This document shows positions 2,677-40,490 of a stretch of 64,000 nt of DNA, one piece after another (position 1 is the first letter of the stretch; every line of letters begins with the position of its first letter). Both the position numbers and the translations under genes were made by a program. The stretch comes from an uncultured Treponema sp. (lineage in GTDB: Bacteria > Spirochaetota > Spirochaetia > Treponematales > Treponemataceae). The stretch is from positions 155,553 through 219,552 of the forward strand of contig CAMCRZ010000002.1 in NCBI GenBank assembly GCA_945877425.1, read 5' to 3'. Below the pieces are notes generated by a model that searched no databases, was not told the origin of the DNA, and saw only the letters and a program-made list of their open reading frames with translations.

Positions 2677-3693
2677 ATGAAAAGATTTGTCTTTATTTCC
2701 ATAGCATTTTTTTTTGCTGCAATAAGTTTTCTCTGCATACTTTTGTTCCGCATAGACTTAACGGGAAAAAGCGTAGAAAAAAATCCTGCAACTGAAAAAA
2801 AAGAAATTATACTTGGCTTTTCCCAAATTGGCTCTGAAAGTGCATGGCGTACAAGAAATACACAGTCAGTTTTTGAAGCTGCTAAAAACAATGGAATTCA
2901 GATTATATTTGACGATGCACAGCAGAAACAGTCTAATCAGATTAAGGCAATAAGGTCTTTTATAGTTTATCAGGTTGATGTAATAGCTTTTGTTCCTATA
3001 GTTGAAGACGGCTGGGACAATGTCCTTAAAGAAGCAAAAGACGCTCAGATTCCAGTTATAGTTGTAGACAGAAAAATAAATTCTTCCCCTTCACTTTACG
3101 CCGGCTACATTGGAGAAGATGCTCTGGAAGAAGGCAAAAAGGCAGGTCGGTTTCTTCTTTCAAAAAAAATGAATGAGGAAAAAGAAGTTTATAACGTTAT
3201 GGAACTTTACGGCACAAGGAATTCTTCTGTTGCAAAAGGACGAAGCGAAGGTTTTAGAAGTGTTCTAGAAGGTTCAAAGTTTAAAATCATTTATTCAGAA
3301 GATGGAGACTTTCTTCGTTCGTTAGGAAAGGAAATTGCTGAAAATCTTATACAGGAAAACAACGGACTTTTTTACAAAGGTCAGGAAATAGACGTAATTT
3401 ATTCCCACAACGATGCAATGACCCTTGGCTTGCTTGACGCATTTAAGGAATACAAAATTGATTCAAAAGACAAAGTCATTATTTCAATTGACGCAGAACA
3501 AAAAAGCATAGACGCACTTAAAGCAGGAAAAATCAATTGTGTTGTAGAATGTAATCCGGATTTAGGTGAATCGCTTATGGTTCTTGTAAAAGATGTGGCT
3601 CAGGGAAAAAGAATTGCCCGTTCTACTTTTATGGAAGAAACAGTTTTTACTGAAAACGATGATTTTTCTTCCTATAAAATCAGAGGATATTGA
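2677..3693 (+). CDS. Membrane-anchored periplasmic sugar-binding protein (YtfQ/RbsB-like), likely sensory partner of the downstream kinase
   Basis: N-terminal hydrophobic anchor without a clear lipobox; type I periplasmic-binding fold (LGFSQIGSESAWRTRNTQS, PVIVVDRKI, VIYSHNDAMTLGLLDA); stop overlaps the kinase start. Confidence 0.8.
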   Translation: MKRFVFISIAFFFAAISFLCILLFRIDLTGKSVEKNPATEKKEIILGFSQIGSESAWRTRNTQSVFEAAKNNGIQIIFDDAQQKQSNQIKAIRSFIVYQVDVIAFVPIVEDGWDNVLKEAKDAQIPVIVVDRKINSSPSLYAGYIGEDALEEGKKAGRFLLSKKMNEEKEVYNVMELYGTRNSSVAKGRSEGFRSVLEGSKFKIIYSEDGDFLRSLGKEIAENLIQENNGLFYKGQEIDVIYSHNDAMTLGLLDAFKEYKIDSKDKVIISIDAEQKSIDALKAGKINCVVECNPDLGESLMVLVKDVAQGKRIARSTFMEETVFTENDDFSSYKIRGY

Positions 3694-5171
3694 CTGTGAC
3701 AGAAAAATTAAAATCTAAAAGGAAAAAGCGCAGTTTTAAAGCCATAATGGAATTTTCATATCTGCTGATTATTCTGATTATGATTATTCCTACAATTTAT
3801 TCAGTTTCAGTTTCAAACTATCACACATCGCAATACGACAAAATAATTACGAACATTGGAAAGGCAAATACCATAAACCAGATTGCAAAAGTTGAACTTC
3901 CTGAACAATTGTGGGACATAGTCTGCGGCAAAAAAGATTTTTACTCATCAAATCCATTTGAAAAGATTGAGTTTATTTTTTCAGGCCTTGAAGAAATGAA
4001 AAAAGATTCATCCGGCAGCGAAAACATCAAAAAACTTGAAGTTGCTTTAAGAGCCTGCAGCACTTTAAAACGTAACGTTGAACTTTTTGAATCAGGCTTG
4101 CAGAAAAAAAATTCCGTTGCTGATAACGAAAGCATGCTGGACGAAATAAGATCAATTACAGTTTTATTCAGTGACATCATGCAGGATTACATTTTAAGCG
4201 AAATTGAACTTGCCAATAAAACTAACGAAGGAATAAAAAAATCATCTGTTACACTTTCTCTGCTGCAGGTTGTAATTATTATTTTTTCACTGGGCATTTC
4301 TTTTAACGGATATCACGGCGTTTCTAAGGGAATCAGAAAACCGCTGGAAGAAATGCAGAAACTTTCCAAAGAAATTTCAGGAGGAAACTTAAATGCACGT
4401 ACAGAACTTCCTGAAGTTGAAGAACTTACTTCTCTTGCCGTAAATATGAACTTAATGGCAGAAAAAATTGACGAGCTTATTAAGAAAAACATTCAGGAAC
4501 AGAAGAGTTTTCAGAAAGCAGAAATGAAAGCTTTGCAGGCTCAGATTACGCCCCACTTTCTGTACAATACTTTTGACACAATTCTCTGGCTTGCAGAAGA
4601 AGAGCGTGCGGAAGACGTAATTTCCATAACGAAAGCATTTTCCCAGTTTATGCGCATTTCTTTAAGCAAAGGTCACGAATGGATTACCATTGGGCAGGAA
4701 GTTGAACACATAAAAAATTACCTTACAATTCAAAAAATCCGTTATGCTGATATTTTAAATTACGACATTCAGATGAACGAAGAACTTAAGGATTTTAAAA
4801 TCATAAAGCTTGTGCTCCAGCCTTTAGTTGAAAATGCAATATATCACGGAATAAAAAACAAGCGTGGAAGGGGTTATTTAAAAGTTACAGTTGATTTTAC
4901 AGACGAAAATAAATCAGACATTATTTTTACAGTCAGCGATAACGGTGCAGGCTTTACAAAAGAAAGGCTTGAAGAAGTAAAAAGAGAAATGGAAACTGAA
5001 TCTTGTGACAGTGAACAGCTTTCTTCAGTTTACGGCGTTTACAATGTGAACAAAAAATTAAAGCTTTACTACGGCGAAAAAACTTCAGGGCTTAATATCA
5101 AAAGCGAAAGTTCAAAAGGCTGCACTGTAACTTTTACCGTTCCATGCCTGAGTAAAGAAACCGAATCTTAA
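3690..5171 (+). CDS. Sensor histidine kinase, YesM/LytS type (HAMP, His_kinase, HATPase_c)
   Basis: ALQAQITPHFLYNTFDTILWLAEEE, VLQPLVENAIYHGI, DNGAGF motifs; two TM segments; HAMP-like region. Confidence 0.9.
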   Translation: MTVTEKLKSKRKKRSFKAIMEFSYLLIILIMIIPTIYSVSVSNYHTSQYDKIITNIGKANTINQIAKVELPEQLWDIVCGKKDFYSSNPFEKIEFIFSGLEEMKKDSSGSENIKKLEVALRACSTLKRNVELFESGLQKKNSVADNESMLDEIRSITVLFSDIMQDYILSEIELANKTNEGIKKSSVTLSLLQVVIIIFSLGISFNGYHGVSKGIRKPLEEMQKLSKEISGGNLNARTELPEVEELTSLAVNMNLMAEKIDELIKKNIQEQKSFQKAEMKALQAQITPHFLYNTFDTILWLAEEERAEDVISITKAFSQFMRISLSKGHEWITIGQEVEHIKNYLTIQKIRYADILNYDIQMNEELKDFKIIKLVLQPLVENAIYHGIKNKRGRGYLKVTVDFTDENKSDIIFTVSDNGAGFTKERLEEVKREMETESCDSEQLSSVYGVYNVNKKLKLYYGEKTSGLNIKSESSKGCTVTFTVPCLSKETES

Positions 5172-5237
5172 CTGACGGCTGCTGTGTCTATTGAAAAAAA
5201 ATCGTTTTAAGATAAAAATAAAAGTGCGTGGTTAGAA

Positions 5238-6821
5238 ATGTATAAAGTTTTTGTAGTTGATGATGAGCCTATTGTTCTTGAAGGTATGAGGTCTAAAATT
5301 GACTGGGAAAGTTCAGGTTTTACGCTTGCAGGAGAAGCCAGCGACGGAGAAATTGCCCTTTCAATGATTCAGGAAATTAAGCCTGACATTCTTATTACTG
5401 ACATAAAAATGCCTTTTATGGACGGTCTCACTTTATCATCTTCCGTTAAGAAAATTTTTCCTTGGATAAAAATCATAATTCTTTCAGGACATGATGAATT
5501 TGACTATGCAAAAAAAGCCATTTCAATAGGCATTCAGGATTACATTTTAAAGCCCTTTACCACTCAGGAAATACTTAAAGGATTGAACAAGGCAGCTCTT
5601 GAAATTACAAACGAAAGAAAACAGCTCAGCGACATTTCAACTTTAAGGCAGGAACTTAAGTCAAAAGAAAAACTTGAATGCAGGGATTTTTTAAACAACC
5701 TTGTTCATGGAAGTGCAGATTTTTCCAAAGTAATGGAAATAAGCGAAAAGTTTAACATTCACTTAATAAGCCGTTACTATAAAATTCTGATTGCAAAAAT
5801 TACATCTGAAAATACTTCAGAAAAATCAGAAAACCAGATGCAGAATATCTTAAATTCATGGATTTCTTCCTGGGAAGAAGAATGTACTGTTTCTTTTTTA
5901 CATCATTCCAACTGGATTGTGTGCATTTGCAAAGGAAGCGACACTTCTGTTCTTGAAGAAAACGTTTTTCGTGTTGCGCAGTCAATTGAACATATTGTAA
6001 AGCAGCAGGAAAACTGGGTTTTAACAGTAGGCATAGGCTGCACTACAGCTCACCTTTCTTCCCTTCATGAATCTTATGATGATGCAAAAAAAATCATTGA
6101 GTTAAGTGAAAGCAGCAGGGAAAATACAATCGTAAGTTCAGACGACATTCAGCTTACAGGAAGCGGCATAAACGAAATAAAGGAAAAAGATCCTATGGTT
6201 ATACGCCTTCGTTATGCAGGAAAAAATGATATTGAAGAAATTGCAGAAGAGTCTGTTGCTCTTGTAAATTCCAATCCTGAACAGTTCAGTTTTTTTGCAA
6301 ACTACATACTTGCAGACATTATATTTGCCGTTTCAAAACTTATAGAAAATCTTGGAGGAAACATAAAGGAAGTTAAGCCTGAAATCATCCAGCGGAGTTT
6401 TATAGAAGAAGCAGTCGTAAACAAAGATGCATTTGAAAAAAAACTTGTTGAAGTACTGAATTTTGCCATTGAATACAGGGATTCAAAAAACAGCGGAAAA
6501 TACGGCGAAGTTATCCTTAAGGCAAAAAAGTACATTGAAGAAAACTATGCTGACCCGAATACTACACTTGCAAAAGTTGCAGATATTGTATGTTTAAGTC
6601 CCAATCACTTCAGTACGATTTTCAGCCAGCAGTGCAAAATAACTTTCATAGAATATCTAACAAATGTTCGTATTGAAAATGCAAAGCGCCTTCTCAAGCT
6701 TTCTGATAAAAAAGGATACGACATTGCATACGAATGCGGCTTTAGTGATCCTCATTATTTCAGTTACATCTTTAAAAAAAACACGGGACTTTCGCCCCGT
6801 GAATATAAAGGTAACAATTAA
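5238..6821 (+). CDS. Response regulator, YesN type (receiver + AraC-family HTH)
   Basis: Receiver VFVVDDEPIVLEGMR...DILITDIKMPFMDG...ILKPF; C-terminal AraC HTH (VADIVCLSPNHFSTIFSQQ...AYECGFSDPHYFSYIFKKNTGLSPREYK). Confidence 0.92.
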   Translation: MYKVFVVDDEPIVLEGMRSKIDWESSGFTLAGEASDGEIALSMIQEIKPDILITDIKMPFMDGLTLSSSVKKIFPWIKIIILSGHDEFDYAKKAISIGIQDYILKPFTTQEILKGLNKAALEITNERKQLSDISTLRQELKSKEKLECRDFLNNLVHGSADFSKVMEISEKFNIHLISRYYKILIAKITSENTSEKSENQMQNILNSWISSWEEECTVSFLHHSNWIVCICKGSDTSVLEENVFRVAQSIEHIVKQQENWVLTVGIGCTTAHLSSLHESYDDAKKIIELSESSRENTIVSSDDIQLTGSGINEIKEKDPMVIRLRYAGKNDIEEIAEESVALVNSNPEQFSFFANYILADIIFAVSKLIENLGGNIKEVKPEIIQRSFIEEAVVNKDAFEKKLVEVLNFAIEYRDSKNSGKYGEVILKAKKYIEENYADPNTTLAKVADIVCLSPNHFSTIFSQQCKITFIEYLTNVRIENAKRLLKLSDKKGYDIAYECGFSDPHYFSYIFKKNTGLSPREYKGNN

Positions 6822-6842: not shown

Positions 6843-7901
6843 TTAAGAAGCAGACATTCCAAGCTTTTTCTTACGTGCGCTTAAGATAATGCTTTGAAGA
6901 AGAATAAACAGACACAGCATAAGACCGATTGTTATTTTCTGCCAGTAAGGTTCGCGCAAACCTGATGCAATAACCATAATGTTTATAGTTTTAAGGGAAA
7001 GTACACCAAAGAAAGTTCCTATTACGCTTCCAACTCCGCCTGTAAGCAAGGTTCCTCCAATAATTGAAGATGCAATGGCTTCCATTTCTGCACCGCTGGC
7101 ATTAGAGTAGTTTCCTGCTCCAGTGTGAAGAAGGTAAACAAATCCTGCAATTCCTGCCAGAAGTCCGCACAAAAGATAAGCAAAGAATTTCGTACGCTGA
7201 ACGTTTATTCCAAGCATAAGGGCACTTTCGCTGTTACCGCCAACTGCATAAAGATTACGGCCGAAACGTGTCCACTTTAAAACAGCCCACATTATTATAA
7301 CAACTGCAATGGCTATGAAAAATCCGATTTCACAGTAAGTAGGAATAAAAGTTCCGTTTTTAGCTGTATGTCCTATAACAGGCAGGTTAAGCGTAAATTC
7401 CTTAACTTTAAGAAATACTTCATTAGTTGCAGTTCTTGGAATGCTGCTTATAATTGTCGTCATGCCTCTTGTAAAGAACATCCCTGCAAGTGTAACAATA
7501 AAAGGCTGAATGTTAAGGTAAGCAACAAGGAACCCCTGAAGCAATCCCATAGTAAGGCCTATTCCAAGAGAAATTAAAAGTGAACTTAAAATTCCGCCGT
7601 TAAAGTCTTCCATGAAAACAACAGATGCCATTGTAATCAAGGCAATGCTTCCGCCAACAGAAATATCAATTCCGCCGGTAATCATAACAACAGTAAGTGC
7701 GCAGGAAATTATGATAAGATAAGCGTTGTTGTTGATAATGTCAAAAAACTGCTGAGGATTTAGAAATCCGCCTCCCCAAAGTACCATGCCAAAAATGTAC
7801 ATTGCTGCAAAAGTACAAATTGTAATTGTCAGCAGAATAGTTGTATTAGAAAGTGGCAGTTTCTTTTCTTTTACAGGCATTTGAGCATCATTAGATTTCA
7901 T
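6843..7901 (-). CDS. Sugar ABC transporter permease (YjfF/RbsC-like)
   Basis: BPD_transp_2-type hydrophobic protein; GGIDISVGG, NLYAVGGNSESALMLGINV motifs; operon position. Confidence 0.88.
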   Translation of the reverse strand: MKSNDAQMPVKEKKLPLSNTTILLTITICTFAAMYIFGMVLWGGGFLNPQQFFDIINNNAYLIIISCALTVVMITGGIDISVGGSIALITMASVVFMEDFNGGILSSLLISLGIGLTMGLLQGFLVAYLNIQPFIVTLAGMFFTRGMTTIISSIPRTATNEVFLKVKEFTLNLPVIGHTAKNGTFIPTYCEIGFFIAIAVVIIMWAVLKWTRFGRNLYAVGGNSESALMLGINVQRTKFFAYLLCGLLAGIAGFVYLLHTGAGNYSNASGAEMEAIASSIIGGTLLTGGVGSVIGTFFGVLSLKTINIMVIASGLREPYWQKITIGLMLCLFILLQSIILSARKKKLGMSAS

Positions 7902-9004
7902 TTACTTACCTCCACTTTTGATTTTTTTGAACTGAACAAACGGTTCTTGATTTTGCCGATGTAGCTTTTTACAACTGGTGATCCCAGTACAACAATCAGA
8001 ATAATAACGATTGCCTTGTATGCTTTAACAGAAACAGCCGGAACTTTCATAGCATAAAGCGTAATTGTAAGAGCCTGAATAATGTAAGCTCCTATAATTG
8101 AACCTGCAAGCTTGAATTTTCCGCCGCCTAAAGAGTTACCGCCAATAGCAACTGCAAGAATAGCGTCCATTTCAATGTCTATAAGAATAGTTTCATGGTT
8201 AATAAGACCGATTCTGCACACATTCATTGAACCTGACAGAGCAACACATACACCAAGAATTACGAATACAGTCAGTTTCATAATGATTGGGTTGATGCCG
8301 TTAAGTTTTGCTGCTTTTTCGTTAATTCCTACAGACTGAATGTAAAGGCTTAAGTTCGTAAACTTTAAAAGAAGCTTAATGATTATTACAAAAAGTACTA
8401 CAATAAGAATCGGACTTGGAATTGGGCAGCCCGGAATAAATCCGCCTAAAGCACCAAGAAGGGGACTTTCTACGTTAGGAGTTGCACCGCCGTTTATCCA
8501 GTATGCAATAGGACGTCCTGCAGTATAAAGGATAAGCGAAGCAATCATAGGCTGAATGTTGAACTTTGCAATTAAAAATCCGTTGAAAAGACAAAACAGA
8601 ATTCCTACAAGACAGGCAAAAACTACTCCAATCAGAATGGAAGAAACTGTAATTGAAGAAGAAGCCTTTAAAGTCTTTACGAAAACACTTCCTGCAATAG
8701 CTGCAACTGCACCAACGGAAATATCCTGACCTTTTGTAGCAGAAGTAACTAAAGTCATACCTATAGCAAGAATGGCAAGTTCGCTGGCACCGTTTAAAAT
8801 ACTTATAAGGTTTCCGGCAATTACTTTATGACCTGCACTGTTTACGTTTATTCCTATAGAAAAAAACGAAGGGTCTCTTATAAGATTAAAAACTACAAGC
8901 AGAACAAGTGCAATAATCGGAATAATAAGCTGGGACTGAGAAAATTTCTTAAGCCCCTTTGAAATAGAACAATTATCTTTCATTTTTAGAACTGTCTCCT
9001 GCAA
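7898..9004 (-). CDS. Sugar ABC transporter permease (YtfT/RbsC-like)
   Basis: BPD_transp_2 features (KGQDISVGAVAAIAG, IGGNSLGGGKFKLAGSIIGA); overlaps neighbouring genes. Confidence 0.88.
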   Translation of the reverse strand: MQETVLKMKDNCSISKGLKKFSQSQLIIPIIALVLLVVFNLIRDPSFFSIGINVNSAGHKVIAGNLISILNGASELAILAIGMTLVTSATKGQDISVGAVAAIAGSVFVKTLKASSSITVSSILIGVVFACLVGILFCLFNGFLIAKFNIQPMIASLILYTAGRPIAYWINGGATPNVESPLLGALGGFIPGCPIPSPILIVVLFVIIIKLLLKFTNLSLYIQSVGINEKAAKLNGINPIIMKLTVFVILGVCVALSGSMNVCRIGLINHETILIDIEMDAILAVAIGGNSLGGGKFKLAGSIIGAYIIQALTITLYAMKVPAVSVKAYKAIVIILIVVLGSPVVKSYIGKIKNRLFSSKKSKVEVSK

Positions 9005-10487
9005 TAGTATTCATAATATTTTCCTGAGAAAGCTGATTTCCGGTAAGTTCGCCTACAATTTTACGGTCACGCATAACAATAAGTTTAGAGCACACGTTAA
9101 GCATTTCCTGAATTTCCGAAGAAATGAAAGTTACGGCAACTCCGTCTTCTGCAAGTTTAAGAACAAGCTTCTGGATTTCAACTTTTGTACCAACATCAAT
9201 ACCGCGGGTAGGTTCATCAAGGATAAGATATTTTGGATGAGTCAAAAGCCATCGTGCTAAAATTACTTTCTGCTGATTTCCGCCTGACAGTGATTTAATA
9301 GGTGTTTCTTTGGATGCAGTTTTTATGTTAAGCACTTTAATGAATTCATCAGCAAATTTTTCCTGCTCAGCCCTTGAAATAGGTTTCCAGAATCCGCTTA
9401 AAACCTGCATTGCAAGAAGCATATTTTCCCTTACGCTAAGGTCAGGAATAATGCCGTCGCCCTTTCTGTCTTCTGGAAGATAGCCTATGCCGTTTTTCAT
9501 GGCATCAAGAGGCTTTTTGATTTTAACTTCTTTTCCGTCAACTTTTACATTTCCGCCTGTAACACGGTCTGCTGCAAAAATTGCCCTTACACTTTCGCTT
9601 CGTCCAGAGCCAAGAAGTCCTGTAAATCCGTTTACTTCACCTTTACGAAGAGCAAAGTCAAATGGCCTTACGCCTTCTGTGCTGCTTAAATCATGTGCTT
9701 CATAAACAAAGCTTCCATCTGCACCTGAAGATTTCCGTTCATCTTTAAGTTTAGAAATATCTTCAACATTTTTGCCAAGCATTGCTGAAACAAGTTCAAC
9801 CTGAGGCATATCTTTTATTTCATATTCGCCGACAAGTTCACCGTTACGCAAAACAGTGATTCTGTCGCAAACTTCATATACTTGTTCAAGAAAGTGGGTA
9901 ATAAATATAATTCCAACACCAGAACTTTTCAGTTCACGCATTAAAGTAAACAAAAGTTCAACTTCCCTTTCGTCAAGAGATGATGTAGGTTCGTCAAGAA
10001 TAAGGACTTTACACTGCATGTCAACAGCTCTGGCAATTGCAATCATCTGCTGAACTGCAAGAGAACAAGTTCCAAGCTGCTGCTTAGCTTTTGCAGGAAT
10101 ATTCAGACTTTCCAGAATTTCATCAGCCTTTTTTTCCTGCTCCTTGTGGTTTACAAAACAATACTTTCCCCGTCCAATAAAAATGTTTTCTGCAACAGTT
10201 AAATTAGGGCAAAGAGTAATTTCCTGATAAACAGTACTTATACCGGCATTTTGAGCGTCTTGCGGAGAACGAATATTTACAGTATTGCCGTCAACTGTAA
10301 TAACTCCGGAATCTTTTACATGAACACCTGTAAGAACTTTAACTAAAGTGGATTTTCCTGCACCGTTTTCACCCATAAGAGCATGAATTTCACCTTTACG
10401 GAGAGTGAAATCAACATTACTTAAGGCTTTTACTCCAGGGAATTCTTTAGAGATGTTCCGCATTGTAACAATAACATTATCTTCCAT
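8973..10487 (-). CDS. Sugar ABC transporter ATP-binding protein, duplicated ATPase (YtfR/MglA/RbsA-like)
   Basis: Two ABC domains: GENGAGKSTLVKVLTG, ILDEPTSSLDEREVELLF; second SLSGGNQQKVILARWL, ILDEPTRGIDVGTK. Confidence 0.93.
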   Translation of the reverse strand: MEDNVIVTMRNISKEFPGVKALSNVDFTLRKGEIHALMGENGAGKSTLVKVLTGVHVKDSGVITVDGNTVNIRSPQDAQNAGISTVYQEITLCPNLTVAENIFIGRGKYCFVNHKEQEKKADEILESLNIPAKAKQQLGTCSLAVQQMIAIARAVDMQCKVLILDEPTSSLDEREVELLFTLMRELKSSGVGIIFITHFLEQVYEVCDRITVLRNGELVGEYEIKDMPQVELVSAMLGKNVEDISKLKDERKSSGADGSFVYEAHDLSSTEGVRPFDFALRKGEVNGFTGLLGSGRSESVRAIFAADRVTGGNVKVDGKEVKIKKPLDAMKNGIGYLPEDRKGDGIIPDLSVRENMLLAMQVLSGFWKPISRAEQEKFADEFIKVLNIKTASKETPIKSLSGGNQQKVILARWLLTHPKYLILDEPTRGIDVGTKVEIQKLVLKLAEDGVAVTFISSEIQEMLNVCSKLIVMRDRKIVGELTGNQLSQENIMNTIAGDSSKNER

Positions 10488-10575: not shown

Positions 10576-11523
10576 TTATTCTCCAAGACCATATTTTTCA
10601 ATGTCTTCGTCTGTAATTGTTGCAGCATCAAAACCTTTTTCTTCAGAAATGATTTTCTTAGAAGGAACGTTTCCAGATTTGATCATTTCTTCAATTACAG
10701 ATGCCTGGAATGGAGAACACTGTCCGTCATAGTTCCAGTTACCGGCTTTAACTTCACGGAGAGCCCACTTGTTGCAGTCAAATCCCATGATAATAACATC
10801 GCCGTTTACACCGTGTGTAATTCCATGTTCATCAAGAGCAGCAACAGCACCTTTTGCCATACCGTCGTTTTCTGCATAGATAACATTGAATTTTTCACCG
10901 CTGTTGATTACAGCTTCAACGATTTTCTTTGCTTCTGCTTCGTCCCATGTAGCTGTCTGCTGAACAACTTTATTCATAGTTCCTGCAGCAAATTCCTTGT
11001 CAAGAGCAGCTGTACGTCCAATCTGTGCATCTGAACCCATTGCACCCTGGATATGAATAACATTGTATTCAGGAAGATTCTGTGCCTTAAGCCATGCAAC
11101 AGCTGTATCACCCTGGTTTGCCATGTCTGAAACTACAGCAGCTTCGTAAAGATCAGGTTCTGCATTAAGCATACGGTCAAAAAGGAAAACCTTAATTCCG
11201 GCAGTCTGTGCGTTTTTAAGAACCTTGCTCCATCCGTCTGTTGCAGCAGCAGAAAGAAGAATGTAATCTACTCCGTCTGTAATCATCTGTGAAGCAGCAT
11301 TTAACTGTTCATCATTCTTTAAGCTGTAAATTGTTTTAACGTCGTAGCCCTTTTCTTTAGTAAATACATCTTCAAAATCCTTAACGTTTGCTGCACGATA
11401 ACCTGATTCTGAAGGCGGATTGTTAATGATACCGATTTTGATTAAGTCAGATTTTTTTGCACATCCTAAAAACATTGTTGCAGTACAGGCAACTGCCGCT
11501 AAAACTGAAACCACTTTTTTCAT
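10576..11523 (-). CDS. Sugar ABC transporter substrate-binding lipoprotein (YtfQ-like)
   Basis: Signal peptide with lipobox (ATMFLGCAKK), periplasmic binding fold (IGIINNPPSESGYRAANV, FLFDRMLN, VIYAENDGMAKGAVAAL); RBS taaggagg. Confidence 0.87.
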   Translation of the reverse strand: MKKVVSVLAAVACTATMFLGCAKKSDLIKIGIINNPPSESGYRAANVKDFEDVFTKEKGYDVKTIYSLKNDEQLNAASQMITDGVDYILLSAAATDGWSKVLKNAQTAGIKVFLFDRMLNAEPDLYEAAVVSDMANQGDTAVAWLKAQNLPEYNVIHIQGAMGSDAQIGRTAALDKEFAAGTMNKVVQQTATWDEAEAKKIVEAVINSGEKFNVIYAENDGMAKGAVAALDEHGITHGVNGDVIIMGFDCNKWALREVKAGNWNYDGQCSPFQASVIEEMIKSGNVPSKKIISEEKGFDAATITDEDIEKYGLGE

Positions 11524-11563: not shown

Positions 11564-11592
11564 ATAATACATCCAGTAAGGAAAATTTGAAA
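11564..11592 (-). promoter_or_regulatory. Candidate weak-minus-35 promoter of the sugar ABC operon (TTTCAA-N17-TATTAT)
   Basis: Read on minus strand upstream of RBS; poor -35 is consistent with activator dependence. Confidence 0.4.
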
Positions 11593-11659
11593 TTAAAATT
11601 TTTAGGAAAATAATTTGACTTTTTTAAGAAAAAATCCGGAAAAAACTTACTTTTTGGCG

Positions 11660-11701
11660 AAAAAGTTTAAAAAATTACGCAAAAAGTTTAAAAAATTACG
11701 C
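11660..11701. repeat. Perfect 21-bp tandem repeat (AAAAAGTTTAAAAAATTACGC x2)
   Basis: Two contiguous identical 21-bp copies, 11660-11680 and 11681-11701, read directly. Confidence 0.95.
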
Positions 11702-11736: not shown

Positions 11737-12885
11737 CTAAGATTCGTTAAGCCTGTATTCATAATTTTCCTTAATCCAGTTTTTATATTCTCCAGAAAGA
11801 ATGCGTTCTGTCCACTGAGTGTTGCTTAAATACCATTTTATAGTTGCAAGAAGTCCCTGTTCAAAAGGCATTTTTCTTTCCCAGCCAAGTTTTTCCTTTG
11901 CTTTAGTGCAGTCAATTGCATAGCGCTTGTCGTGACCAGGCCGGTCTTTTACGAAAACAATGTTTTTCTTTACGTCTTCAGCATTAAGGGAAAGCTGGCT
12001 GCATTCAAGTTCAATTACTTTGTTAAGAAGCGTAATGTTCTGCCATTCATTTTCTCCGCCTAAGTTCCATTTTTCTCCTGCAGGTGACTTTTTCATGATA
12101 TGCCATACGCCTCTGTTGTGATCTTCAACGTAAATCCAGTCACGTATGTTGTCGCCTTTACCGTAAACAGGAAGAGGCTTTCCGCTGCGGATATTCGTAA
12201 TCATTAAAGGAAGAAGCTTTTCCGGAAACTGATATGGTCCGTAGTTGTTGGTACAGTTTGAAAGAGTAACAGGAAGGCCGTAAGTGTGGAAATATGCCAT
12301 GACAAGATGATCGCTGCTTGCTTTTGAAGATGAATAAGGGCTTCTTGGGTCATAAGGTGTAGTTTCTTTAAAATAACCGCCTGCACCAAGAGAGCCGTAA
12401 ACTTCATCAGTGGAAATATGATGGAAAAGTACGTCATCACGCTGATTTTCAAGACTGACATTCCAGTAAGTGCGGGCTGCTTCAAGTAAAGTGAAAGTTC
12501 CTTCAATATTCGTTTTGATAAAATCAGCAGGACCTGAAATGGAACGGTCTACATGACTTTCTGCTGCAAAATGCACTACTGTATCAATATCGTACTGGGA
12601 AAATAGCCTGTTTACTTCACTGCTGTTGCAAATGTTGACTTTTTCAAAAAAGTACCGCCTTTTCTGCTTGTTTTTACATCCTGAACCGTATTTTTCATCA
12701 ACATCAGTCAGGGAATAAGGATTTCCTGCATAAGTAAGGCAGTCAGCATTTATAACCCTGCCGTCAAAATCACAGTCGCCGAAAAGTTCCCTGCTTACAG
12801 AAGAAAGATTAAACAGGTAATGAATGAAATTTGAACCTATAAAGCCTGAGCCGCCTGTAACAAGTATATTTTTAAGTTTTCTCAT
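11737..12885 (-). CDS. rfbB: dTDP-glucose 4,6-dehydratase
   Basis: NILVTGGSGFIGSNFIHY, HFAAESHVDRSI, HISTDEVYGSL, YSSSKASSDHLVMAY, NCTNNYGPYQFPEKLLPL. Confidence 0.95.
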   Translation of the reverse strand: MRKLKNILVTGGSGFIGSNFIHYLFNLSSVSRELFGDCDFDGRVINADCLTYAGNPYSLTDVDEKYGSGCKNKQKRRYFFEKVNICNSSEVNRLFSQYDIDTVVHFAAESHVDRSISGPADFIKTNIEGTFTLLEAARTYWNVSLENQRDDVLFHHISTDEVYGSLGAGGYFKETTPYDPRSPYSSSKASSDHLVMAYFHTYGLPVTLSNCTNNYGPYQFPEKLLPLMITNIRSGKPLPVYGKGDNIRDWIYVEDHNRGVWHIMKKSPAGEKWNLGGENEWQNITLLNKVIELECSQLSLNAEDVKKNIVFVKDRPGHDKRYAIDCTKAKEKLGWERKMPFEQGLLATIKWYLSNTQWTERILSGEYKNWIKENYEYRLNES

Positions 12886-18672: not shown

Positions 18673-21381
18673 ATGGGTTCAATTTTTTATTCATTAGTGA
18701 TTTATCCCTTAACGCAGATTATAGAATTAGTTTTCTGTTTATGCAAAAAGCTTTTTGACAACACAGGCTTTGCCATCCTAGGCGTAAGTTTTGCAGTTTC
18801 CCTTCTTACACTTCCACTTTATGTAGTTGCAGAACACTGGCAGCAGGTTGAGCGTGACAAGCAGAAATCAATGAAAAGCGAAATTGATAAAATCAAGGCT
18901 GTATTCAAAGGCAATGAACAGTACATGATTCTTTCAACCTATTACCGTCAGCAGCATTACCACCCTATTATGGCACTTCGTTCAGCTTTCGGGCTTCTTA
19001 TTCAGATTCCTTTTTTTACGGCAGCCTATACATGTTTAAGCAATATGACGGCACTTCAGGGGCATAGCCTTCTTTTTATACGTGATTTAGGTGCGCCGGA
19101 TTCACTTTTTACAATCGGTTCTTTCCATGTAAACGTTCTTCCTATTGCCATGACTCTTATAAACATGATAAGCGGAACTATTTACACAAAAGGACTTCCT
19201 TTAAGAGATAAAATTCAGACTTACGGCCTTGCACTTCTTTTTGTTGTAATTCTTTATGACAGTCCTGCAGGTCTTGTTGCTTACTGGACACTTAACAATC
19301 TTTTTTCTCTTGTAAAAAATGTTTTCTACAAGTTGAAGCATCCTGTGTGGACACTTTACGCAATTGCCTGTGCAGCAGTTGCAGCTTTAGATGTATGGCT
19401 TTTTGCCGGTCACGTTCTTGCATTTAAAAGAGCTGTTCTTGTTGCAGGATGTTTTTCACTTGTATTTTTTGCACCGCTTTTTGTCAAGGCAGCAAATTAT
19501 CTTGTAGACAATACATTTTCTGTTCTTAGGGACAGCTTTAAGCTAAGGCTTGGTCTTTTCATTACATCGGCTGCAGGACTTACGCTTTTAACAGGACTTC
19601 TTATTCCTACACTTTTAATTGCATCTTCACCGGAAGAATTTTCCGGCATAGACGGAATACTTTCTCCTAATTTCTACATAGGAAACACATTCAGTCAGGC
19701 AGCAGGAATTTTCATAATATGGTGCTCGCTGATTTTCTTCCTTTACCATGAAAGAATGCAGACTTTGCTAAGCTTTGGCCTTGCCTGTCTTTTAGGAATG
19801 AGCCTTTTAAACTGTTTCGTTTTCGCAGAAGATTACGGTTACTTAAGCAAGCTTCTTAAATTTACGGAAGTTACGGACTTAGATTCACCTGCGTTAACAG
19901 TCATTATAAACGTACTTGCAATGGCAGCAGTTATTGCGTTTATTGCACTTGCAGTTAAGTTTAAATTTGCAAAGCAGCTGAACTTTGTCTTTGCATTTGT
20001 AAGTTTAGGTCTTATTTTTGTTTCAGTTATAAATGAATCAAAAATTTCAAAAGGATTTAACTCTTACAAAGAAAAAATTGTCGTAAATAAAAATCAGCAG
20101 AAAGAAATAGAGCCTATTTTCCACTTTTCCAAAACAGGCAAAAACGTTCTGTTTATTTTCCTTGACAGAGCGCAAAACCGTTTTGTTGAACCGCTTTTTG
20201 AAGAATGTCCTGAAGTAAAGGAACAGTTTAAAGGCTTTACGCTTTACGAAAATGCAGTTTCATTTAATGCACACACACTTTTAGGTTCGCCTCCCTGCTT
20301 TGGCGGTTATGAGTATACGCCTCAGGAAATGAACACCAGAAAAGACGAAACCCTTGTAAGCAAGACAAACGAATCAATTTTGTATATGCCAAGAATTTTT
20401 ACTGAACAGGGAGAAAATTTCAGTGCAGTTGCAACAGATCCGTCATGGGCAAATTACAGCTGGATTCCTGACTTAAGCATTTACAGCGATTATCCTGCAA
20501 TAAAATCATACATAACAGACGGAATGTACACAGACATATGGTACAAAGAACATCAGGATACGGCAAACTTAAATGTAGTAAGTGCAACTCTAAAGCGCAA
20601 TATTTTGTGGTACTCAATGCTCCGCTCTTCTCCTTTAGTGCTCCGGCCTGCTTTCTACAACAGCGGAAACTACTGGTCAACAAATAAAAGTAACACTGAT
20701 TACAATGATTATCTTGACGGTTACGCTGTTCTTGAATATTTAAGCCGCTTAACTGATTTTAACTGCCAGACAGAAAATTCATTTATAAGTTTTGTAAATA
20801 ATACAACTCACGACTCACTTTTCTTACAAGCACCAGAATATCGTCCTGCAGCAGAAATTACAAATTTCGGCACATCAGAATATGCAAAGGATAACGGATA
20901 TCACTCTTTTGCAGGTGCAATGCGTCGTGTAGGCGAATGGTTTGAATTCCTTAAAGCAAACGGCTGCTGGGATAATACACGAATTGTAATTGTTGCAGAT
21001 CACGGTGCTTCCGGAAAAGAAAGCGGCTACAACTGGGATTCTGATTTTGAAAAAATCGGCCCAGGACGATATCATCCCCTTCTTATGTTTAAGGACTTTA
21101 ATTCAAACGAAGAATTTAATGTAAGCTCTGACTTTATGACAAGCGCTGATGCAAGCGTATTGCTTATTGACGGCGTTATAGAAAACCCTGTAAATCCGTT
21201 TACTGGAAAAGAAGTCAGCGGCAGTGAAAAAGAAAACGGCATTCTTGTATGCACAAGTGATATTTTCATGCCTTATCATAATTCTGGAAAATACGTTTTC
21301 GATGTAAAACCAGGTGAATGGTACAGAGTAAAAGACAATATTTTTGACAGCAGTAACTGGACAATGGAGGACTTTAAATGA
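18673..21381 (+). CDS. YidC/Oxa1-like membrane domain fused to an alkaline-phosphatase/sulfatase-superfamily domain
   Basis: N-terminus (FYSLVIYPLTQIIELVFCL...NTGFAILGVSFAVSLLTLPLYVVAEHWQQ...YYRQQHYHPIMALRSAFGLLIQIPFFTAAY...DSPAGLVAYWTLNNLFSLVKN) is YidC-like; C-terminus NVLFIFLDRAQ...SFNAHTLLGSPPCFGGYEYTP...TRIVIVADHGASGKESG is sulfatase-like. Confidence 0.85.
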   Translation: MGSIFYSLVIYPLTQIIELVFCLCKKLFDNTGFAILGVSFAVSLLTLPLYVVAEHWQQVERDKQKSMKSEIDKIKAVFKGNEQYMILSTYYRQQHYHPIMALRSAFGLLIQIPFFTAAYTCLSNMTALQGHSLLFIRDLGAPDSLFTIGSFHVNVLPIAMTLINMISGTIYTKGLPLRDKIQTYGLALLFVVILYDSPAGLVAYWTLNNLFSLVKNVFYKLKHPVWTLYAIACAAVAALDVWLFAGHVLAFKRAVLVAGCFSLVFFAPLFVKAANYLVDNTFSVLRDSFKLRLGLFITSAAGLTLLTGLLIPTLLIASSPEEFSGIDGILSPNFYIGNTFSQAAGIFIIWCSLIFFLYHERMQTLLSFGLACLLGMSLLNCFVFAEDYGYLSKLLKFTEVTDLDSPALTVIINVLAMAAVIAFIALAVKFKFAKQLNFVFAFVSLGLIFVSVINESKISKGFNSYKEKIVVNKNQQKEIEPIFHFSKTGKNVLFIFLDRAQNRFVEPLFEECPEVKEQFKGFTLYENAVSFNAHTLLGSPPCFGGYEYTPQEMNTRKDETLVSKTNESILYMPRIFTEQGENFSAVATDPSWANYSWIPDLSIYSDYPAIKSYITDGMYTDIWYKEHQDTANLNVVSATLKRNILWYSMLRSSPLVLRPAFYNSGNYWSTNKSNTDYNDYLDGYAVLEYLSRLTDFNCQTENSFISFVNNTTHDSLFLQAPEYRPAAEITNFGTSEYAKDNGYHSFAGAMRRVGEWFEFLKANGCWDNTRIVIVADHGASGKESGYNWDSDFEKIGPGRYHPLLMFKDFNSNEEFNVSSDFMTSADASVLLIDGVIENPVNPFTGKEVSGSEKENGILVCTSDIFMPYHNSGKYVFDVKPGEWYRVKDNIFDSSNWTMEDFK

Positions 21382-22616
21382 TTTTCGCAAATTTCTTATA
21401 TATTGATCCAGGCACGGGAAGCATGCTCTTTTCAGTTTTTATTGGAGCAGCTGCAACTCTTTATTTTTTAGCAAGAGCAGCCTGGCTTAAAGTAAAGCTT
21501 CTTTTTTCGGGAAGAGCTGCAAGGGAAGCTTTAAAAGAAGGTCACAAAAAATTCGTAATATATAATGAAGGAAAGCAGTACTGGAATGTCTTTAAACCGG
21601 TTCTTGATGCTTTTGAAAAACGACAGACTGAACTTACTTATTACACTTCTTATAAGGAAGATCCGGTTTTTCAGATGGACTACAAATACATAAAAAGTGA
21701 ATATATCGGCGAAGGAAATTCTGCATTTGCAAGGCTTAATCTTCTGGAAGCAGACGTTGTAGCCATGACAACTCCAGGTCTTGACGTTTACCAGATGAAG
21801 CGTTCTAAAAAAGTAAAGCATTATGCACATATTCGTCACGGAAGCGGTGATGCAACAATGTATCGTCTTTTTGGAATTGACTACTTTGACTCCGTTCTTT
21901 TAACAGGTGACTATCAGAAAGAAGATATACGCACTTTGGAAAAAAATCGCGGCATAAAAGAGAAAAAACTCGTTACAGTTGGCTGTACTTACCTTGATGA
22001 ACTAAAACTTAAAATGGAAAGCATTAAACCTGAAGAAAACCATAAGTTTACAGTTTTACTTTGTCCAAGCTGGGGACCAAGTGCAATTCTTTCTAAATAC
22101 GGAGAAAAACTTCTGGATCCACTTGTTGCAACAGGCTGGAATATCATAGTTCGTCCTCATCCTCAGTCAAAAAAATCAGAAAGCCAGATGCTTGAAAGAC
22201 TTCAGTTAAAATATAAAGACTGCAGCAATTTAGAATGGAACTTTGACGCTGACAACATTTACGCTTTAAAACGTGCTGACATTATGATTAGCGACTTCAG
22301 TTCTGTTATTTACGATTACACTTTCCTTTGCGACAAACCGGTTATGTATGTTAATGCAAATCTTGACTTACGCATTTACGATGCAAGTGAAGTTCCAGGA
22401 AAACGTTTGTGGCAATTTACAACTCTTGAAAAAATCGGCATTGAACTAAAAGAAGAACAGTTTGCTGACATTAAAAATATAATTCAAAATGCAAGTGATT
22501 CACCTGTTCTGGCACAGGCACGCAAAACCGCAAAAGAACAGGCTTGGATGTACATTGGTAAAGCTGGAGAAAACATTGCGGACTTTATGATTAACCAGCA
22601 GAAGGAGATCAACTAA
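21378..22616 (+). CDS. CDP-glycerol:poly(glycerophosphate) glycerophosphotransferase-like (TagB/TagF family) with N-terminal TM segment
   Basis: YAHIRHGSGDATMYRLFGIDYFDSVLLTGDYQKEDIRTLEK..., RPHPQSKKSE, ADIMISDFSSVIYDYTFLCDKPVMYVN. Confidence 0.8.
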   Translation: MIFANFLYIDPGTGSMLFSVFIGAAATLYFLARAAWLKVKLLFSGRAAREALKEGHKKFVIYNEGKQYWNVFKPVLDAFEKRQTELTYYTSYKEDPVFQMDYKYIKSEYIGEGNSAFARLNLLEADVVAMTTPGLDVYQMKRSKKVKHYAHIRHGSGDATMYRLFGIDYFDSVLLTGDYQKEDIRTLEKNRGIKEKKLVTVGCTYLDELKLKMESIKPEENHKFTVLLCPSWGPSAILSKYGEKLLDPLVATGWNIIVRPHPQSKKSESQMLERLQLKYKDCSNLEWNFDADNIYALKRADIMISDFSSVIYDYTFLCDKPVMYVNANLDLRIYDASEVPGKRLWQFTTLEKIGIELKEEQFADIKNIIQNASDSPVLAQARKTAKEQAWMYIGKAGENIADFMINQQKEIN

Positions 22617-39714: not shown

Positions 39715-40490
39715 TATTTATTTTCCTTTCCTGCAGTTTTTTTAGCAGGTGCTTTTTTTGCCGCTGTAGTTTTTTTAGCAGCAGTTTTTTTAGATTTAGT
39801 TTCAGCCTTTGCAGCAGGCACTTCTGCTTCAGCTTTCTGTTCCTTTGCAGAAACATTTTCGTCTGAAACTTCCTTAGAAACGCTTTCTGCAGCTTTTTTC
39901 ATAAGTTCTGTAGTTTTTGGATTAAGATAAGCACTGAAAAGAGAAGCAACTTCTTCTGCACTAAAGTCGTAGAATGCACTTCCTTTTTTAGATCCGATTC
40001 TGAATCCGCTTGAAATAGAAGCATCACTTTTAATTTCCAGACCTTTTGAAATCTGTGCTTTAAGTGCGGTTTTAAAACTGCTTTCAAGAGCTTTTAAATC
40101 TTTTGGAGAAAGAAGAACAGCAAGTTCTCCTGCAGGATTTGCTGACCAGGCTTTTACAGTTTCAGGAATAATCTTTTTAAGAAGATCTTTGTCGTAAACT
40201 TTTTCAGTTTCTGCATTTATAAGGGCAGAAAGTTCTTTGTTAATGCCGTCGCGGAAAGAGATTATCAAGTTACGGCCAGACTGAATAATTGCATCTTCAC
40301 TGGCTTTTTCCATGCGTTCTGTTTCTGCTTTAGCGTCTTTTATAATGCTGTCTCTTTTAGCTTCAGCTTCTTTAATAATAGAAGCGGCTTTTTTTTCTGC
40401 TTCATCAATAATTTTCTGAGCAGAAGATTCAGCACTGGCAACACCATCTTTTTTGATCTTGTCGATCAGTTCTTGTAACTGGACGTCCAT
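39714..40490 (-). CDS. ntpE: V-type ATP synthase subunit E with Lys/Ala-rich C-terminal tail
   Basis: Subunit E-like coiled-coil N-terminus (ELIDKIKKDGVASAESSAQKIIDEAEKKAASIIKEAEAKRDSI); tail KSKKTAAKKTTAAKKAPAKKTAGKENK. Confidence 0.85.
   Translation of the reverse strand: MDVQLQELIDKIKKDGVASAESSAQKIIDEAEKKAASIIKEAEAKRDSIIKDAKAETERMEKASEDAIIQSGRNLIISFRDGINKELSALINAETEKVYDKDLLKKIIPETVKAWSANPAGELAVLLSPKDLKALESSFKTALKAQISKGLEIKSDASISSGFRIGSKKGSAFYDFSAEEVASLFSAYLNPKTTELMKKAAESVSKEVSDENVSAKEQKAEAEVPAAKAETKSKKTAAKKTTAAKKAPAKKTAGKENK

Follow-up and report, generated by a model that had tools for sequence, protein, structure and literature searches.

A tandem repeat upstream of a Treponema sugar ABC operon as the distal half-site pair of a probable AraC-type operator

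A perfect 21-bp tandem repeat lies upstream of a YtfQ-like sugar ABC operon in a 64,000-nucleotide stretch of DNA (hereafter, the window) from an uncultured Treponema sp. The repeat is very probably the distal pair of half-sites of a dedicated activator operator, recognised by the YesN-type response regulator of a nearby three-component system (sensor SBP, YesM, YesN). This reading builds on the half-site motif, its spacing, its co-occurrence with YesN and the helical phasing of two half-site pairs, all of which are observed directly.

The 21-mer AAAAAGTTTAAAAAATTACGC occurs as two exact back-to-back copies, at 11660–11680 and 11681–11701, just as the initial annotation had claimed. Tandem Repeats Finder reports this array with a period of 21, 2.0 copies, 100% matches and a score of 86, the highest of any tandem array in the window. 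(Overlapping, imperfect arrays with a period of 15 bp are found at 39736–39802.) Read along the ABC operon, on the minus strand, the repeat unit is GCGTAATTTTTTAAACTTTTT. On one side, 36 bp away, is the stop codon of the gene for dTDP-glucose 4,6-dehydratase (rfbB; end at 11737); on the other is the ABC operon, whose first gene starts at 11523. Gene and operon are both on the minus strand, and the repeat lies downstream of the former and upstream of the latter. A scan of the window allowing up to three mismatches recovered no copies of the 21-mer beyond these two (0 expected). The genome-wide search that had been suggested at the outset gave exact copies of the tandem pair alone in 2.4 Mb, which rules out a dispersed repeat element. 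At three mismatches, 2 matches were seen in the genome, compared to 1 for the reversed control.

Downstream of the repeat is a weak sigma-70-like promoter (minus strand, 11591–11564), with TTCAAA and TATTAT separated by 16 bp. The distance between repeat and promoter is 69 bp, close to the ∼68 bp originally given. Features of the locus are collected in Table 1. Galactofuranose transporter (YtfQRT-YjfF) is the best family for most of the ABC subunits, but all subunits score under the NCBIfam equivalog cut-offs (e.g. YtfQ, 119 bits of 510; YtfR, 652 of 850). The genes for the sensor SBP, the PF06580 kinase and the AraC-HTH regulator are adjacent (2677–6821) and convergent with the ABC operon, and congeners have the same set in the same order. 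The AraC-type HTH previously attributed to the 5238–6821 protein is matched by both PF12833 (E = 2.7e-20) and PF00165 (E = 1.5e-19). Elsewhere in the window, a 902-aa ORF (18673–21381, plus strand) combines a YidC/Oxa1 domain at its N terminus (PF02096, E = 5.8e-20) with a weak, below-cut-off sulfatase-like match (PF00884) at its C terminus, an unusual fusion, and is followed by a CDP-glycerol glycerophosphotransferase-like gene (21378–22616).

Table 1. Genes, promoter elements and predicted half-sites of the locus (positions in the window)
Feature	Position	Strand	Basis or remark
YtfQ-like sugar-binding sensor protein	2677..3693	+	
YesM/LytS-type histidine kinase, PF06580	3690..5171	+	
YesN-type response regulator, AraC HTH	5238..6821	+	Proposed operator-binding protein
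Remaining ABC operon	6843..10487	-	ATPase 8973-10487, permeases 7898-9004 and 6843-7901
YtfQ-like sugar-binding lipoprotein	10576..11523	-	First gene of proposed controlled operon
-10 hexamer TATTAT	11564..11569	-	Promoter scan, congener block
-35-like hexamer TTCAAA	11586..11591	-	Promoter scan; kept in congeners
P2, putative proximal half-site (TCCTAAAAATTTTAATTTCA)	11588..11607	-	22 bp from P1, overlaps -35; congener block, register match
P1, putative weaker proximal half-site (TCTTAAAAAAGTCAAATTAT)	11610..11629	-	Congener-conserved block; register match to D profile
D2, predicted distal half-site, identical to D1	11661..11680	-	21 bp downstream of D1; PWM, cross-validated
D1, predicted distal half-site (GCGTAATTTTTTAAACTTTT)	11682..11701	-	Pair score 32.7 by PWM, 30.5 cross-validated

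The initial annotation had proposed comparing orthologous intergenic regions, and had held that loss of the repeat from relatives keeping both systems would speak against an operator. We searched 196 congeners. For the first gene of the operon, about 60 close orthologs were recovered, and 98 genomes had a YesN match at E ≤ 1e-70. A direct repeat is present throughout the congeners with both systems, and the loss that was envisaged is not seen. An iterative position weight matrix (PWM) built from 53 non-redundant congener upstream regions describes an AraC-type half-site, NCRTAAAAWWTYNAACTTTT when read along the ABC operon, and in each of the 53 an imperfect direct repeat of this half-site occurs at the same promoter. 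The most informative position of the PWM is column 16, a C (1.93 bits). In other genomes the two copies have diverged from one another, and hence their perfect identity in the window is incidental: conservation concerns the putative operator, not copy identity.

Because training of the PWM had restricted the spacing to 20–23 bp, we repeated the spacing test with spacing free over 14–40 bp, excluding the close relatives of each genome from the PWM counts. The best pair was spaced by 21 bp in 25/53 promoters and by 22 bp in another 25/53; the other three were at 19, 20 and 23 bp. In shuffled sequences, best-pair spacings were spread evenly, at ∼3.7% per spacing. The promoter in the window gave a pair score of 30.5 with the cross-validated PWM, compared to a maximum of 13.6 among its 200 shuffles. 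One caveat here is that site positions in the other genomes were taken from the constrained run, and hence the validation is strong rather than fully blind.

Within its own genome, the pair pattern is matched without any mismatch at the putative operator and nowhere else. We considered a larger regulon and dropped the idea, as degenerate pair patterns with 2 mismatches are no commoner than the reversed control. Autoregulation of the sensor operon was likewise dropped, since the 458 kb of locus sequence scanned contain no further pair scoring >20.

Congeners also share a block downstream of the repeat, TCCTAAAAATtTCaAAa.AAATTCCTAAAaATtTtCATTCAAAA, followed by the −10 at a near-constant distance. 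The halves of this block match each other best at a shift of 22 (correlation 0.70), and the best matches of the block to the distal half-site, in the same orientation, are at registers 0/1 (0.56) and 22 (0.48). Based on these profiles, the block can be divided into a pair of weaker putative half-sites, P1 followed by P2, the latter overlapping TTCAAA. The distal PWM scores the proximal half-sites of single genomes weakly, and their matching register is visible only in the block profile. With this second, weaker 22-bp pair running into the −35, the promoter would have four co-oriented half-sites, centred at about −134, −113, −62 and −40 relative to a start inferred from the −10. The half-site that overlaps the −35 thus belongs to the proximal pair and not to the repeat first reported. 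The initial annotation had overlooked the proximal pair and the helical phasing between pairs.

Distances from D2 to the proximal block fall into discrete classes across the 53 promoters: 40 (6 promoters), 50–52 (33), 60–63 (10), 72–73 (3) and 86 bp (1). Inter-pair distance is in helical phase in 52 of the 53, and at least 15 changes of distance class are needed on the SBP tree. Among chosen representatives, phase is kept in 17/18 (binomial P about 3e-7, a value that is indicative only, because both period and tolerance were chosen with these data already in view). A sister system, which took no part in setting the phase lattice, has 16/19 promoters on the same lattice (P about 2e-5, with promoters treated as independent). 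The vector strength is greatest at a period close to 11 bp for the first set and close to 10.4 bp for the sister system. Three genomes, G146, G160 and G016, lie outside the lattice. The choice of the distal pair is unambiguous, at least 27 bits above any pair shifted by 5–16 bp, a margin that speaks against the phasing being an artefact of site assignment.

With moderate confidence, we favour a four-half-site array, consisting of two co-oriented AraC-type pairs, in which indels between the pairs are tolerated only in whole helical turns. If this is true, these promoters form a natural set of phase variants and would show that upstream-bound YesN has to touch a partner at the −35 pair, either YesN or RNA polymerase. 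We found no description of such a contact requirement for YesN-type regulators in the open literature, and nothing closer on Treponema AraC operators or on helical phasing.

Presence of the operator goes together with presence of YesN. A YesN ortholog (E ≤ 1e-70) is present in the source genomes of 59 of 61 congener promoters. The other two promoters are from G211 and G187, both incomplete drafts in which the contigs break off close to where YesN would be expected. A YesN ortholog with a single in-frame TAA was noted at G103:C124:97-1608. G211 (89% complete) retains a strong operator with no YesN ortholog detected, a state that reflects either system decay or draft errors; its ABC ATPase match (locus L198) is in two pieces. 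The same combination is seen in G187 (74% complete, 4.8-kb contig). Weaker versions of the operator, with no close YesN ortholog, are seen in G010 and in G039, which belongs to another genus. The operator is kept where the regulator genes are unlinked, either on another contig (G022) or about 31 kb off (G044).

G056 provides a natural case of loss. This genome, 91% complete, has an SBP 78% identical and an intact ABC operon, and the SBP tree places it within the operator-bearing genomes (support 80). No match to YesN was found in G056 at E 1e-20, both operator pairs are missing from its promoter, and the −35 is TTGACA. The three-component genes are also missing (L199). The TTGACA promoter represents a natural switch from a regulated to a possibly constitutive promoter. 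Both pairs are likewise absent from 20 promoters of SBPs that are about 60% identical, taken from genomes without YesN (group B; best score 18.5, at a spacing of 39). As group B is more distant in general, G056 is the sole clean natural loss. The proximal block is missing in G056 and group B too. Together, the conserved direct repeat and its absence where the regulator is absent support the earlier proposal of a probable AraC-type operator, as far as comparative sequence analysis goes.

Could a different protein be responsible? The genome encodes 18 matches to the YesN query, and the site or a weak version of it occurs in G211, G187, G010 and G039, where no close ortholog was detected. We nonetheless consider it unlikely that the repeat is bound by another of the genome's AraC-type or YesN-type regulators rather than by the 5238–6821 protein. 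The site tracks this particular ortholog, both in its joint loss from G056 and in its retention when the genes are unlinked, and the assemblies of G211 and G187 have gaps where the gene would be expected.

Explanations that dispense with a specific regulator fare worse. Curved DNA or an UP element would fit the phased A and T tracts and the AT-rich promoter; yet the top-information column of the PWM is a C, the spacing is sharp at 21/22 bp, and both pairs are gone where YesN is gone, leaving this option very little weight. The identity of the copies in this genome, 36 bp past the rfbB stop codon, is what would be expected of a neutral recent tandem duplication or a 3′-UTR/terminator element of rfbB. 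Such an origin is hardly credible, however, given that the copies have diverged in congeners while their spacing is conserved and the upstream genes are unrelated. An RNA-structure or terminator role was dropped, since the fold z-score is 0.38 and no terminator pattern was found.

Direct repeats also occur in related systems. In the sister system (SBP about 33% and YesN 47–54% identical), the same half-site is found, with the best pair at 21/22 bp in 17/20 promoters, and the YesN recognition segments SPNHFS.IFSQ and DPHYFS.IFKK are nearly unchanged. In another family, a more distant system with a 34%-identical YesN (G033, L052) has a 21-bp direct repeat of different sequence at the equivalent promoter, ahead of the SBP gene (intergenic 3792–4095). 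The copies match at 14/17 positions, a level reached in 5/2000 shuffles.

We infer that YesN is the binder, that it depends on phosphorylation and activates rather than represses, and that a sugar is the inducer. Sugar-bound sensor SBP would stimulate the YesM kinase, which would phosphorylate YesN, steps modelled on described three-component systems (PMC10384115). Phosphorylated YesN would then occupy the 21-bp distal and weaker 22-bp proximal direct repeats and switch on the YtfQ-like operon (11523 down to 6843). As the two pairs keep a fixed mutual DNA face, proteins on both could touch each other or RNA polymerase, and such contact would make up for the poor −35 (TTCAAA). The array may instead repress by looping.

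The predicted operator is a further instance of a known AraC-type direct-repeat layout. As at araI1-I2 of E. coli araBAD, half-sites in direct repeat, spaced by about two helical turns, are associated with an AraC-type HTH regulator, and the downstream half-site (here, P2 of the proximal pair) overlaps the −35 (PMC7408454). The half-site sequence is different, however, and the regulator is a response regulator, whereas AraC itself binds the sugar. Distant sites must share a DNA face in the ara system (PMC7408454); araBAD has one pair plus a remote O2, in contrast to the two co-oriented pairs here. Similar direct repeats, predicted from footprinting, have been described for Bacteroides HTCS, AraC-HTH response regulators of sugar use (16+5, 12+9 or 14+6 bp, a 20–21-bp period; PMC3878776). 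HTCS are single hybrid proteins of polysaccharide loci, whereas here sensor SBP, kinase and regulator are separate and go with an ABC operon. In this respect the system resembles CuaDSR and XylFII-LytS-YesN, which combine a solute-binding sensor, a kinase, a YesN/AraC-type regulator and a sugar ABC operon (PMC10384115), although the sensor here is YtfQ-like.

For YesN-type regulators, known binding sites are few. A clear repeat motif was not identified for pneumococcal YesN (PMC11034029), and the shared promoter sequences of XydR, an AraC-type response regulator, all failed the published AraC/XylS logo (PMC3572039). The footprint across >50 genomes now gives half-site, spacing, orientation and promoter geometry, along with G056 as a natural loss. 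What is unusual about this promoter is the phase-locked double pair. A parallel in inter-site spacing is Bacteroides SusR, whose tandem sites are separated by 67 or 77 bp, a difference of one helical turn (PMC3878776); SusR belongs to a different family, has a single site pair and is not a response regulator. Helical quantisation of the distance between pairs provides evolutionary evidence for protein contacts across DNA.
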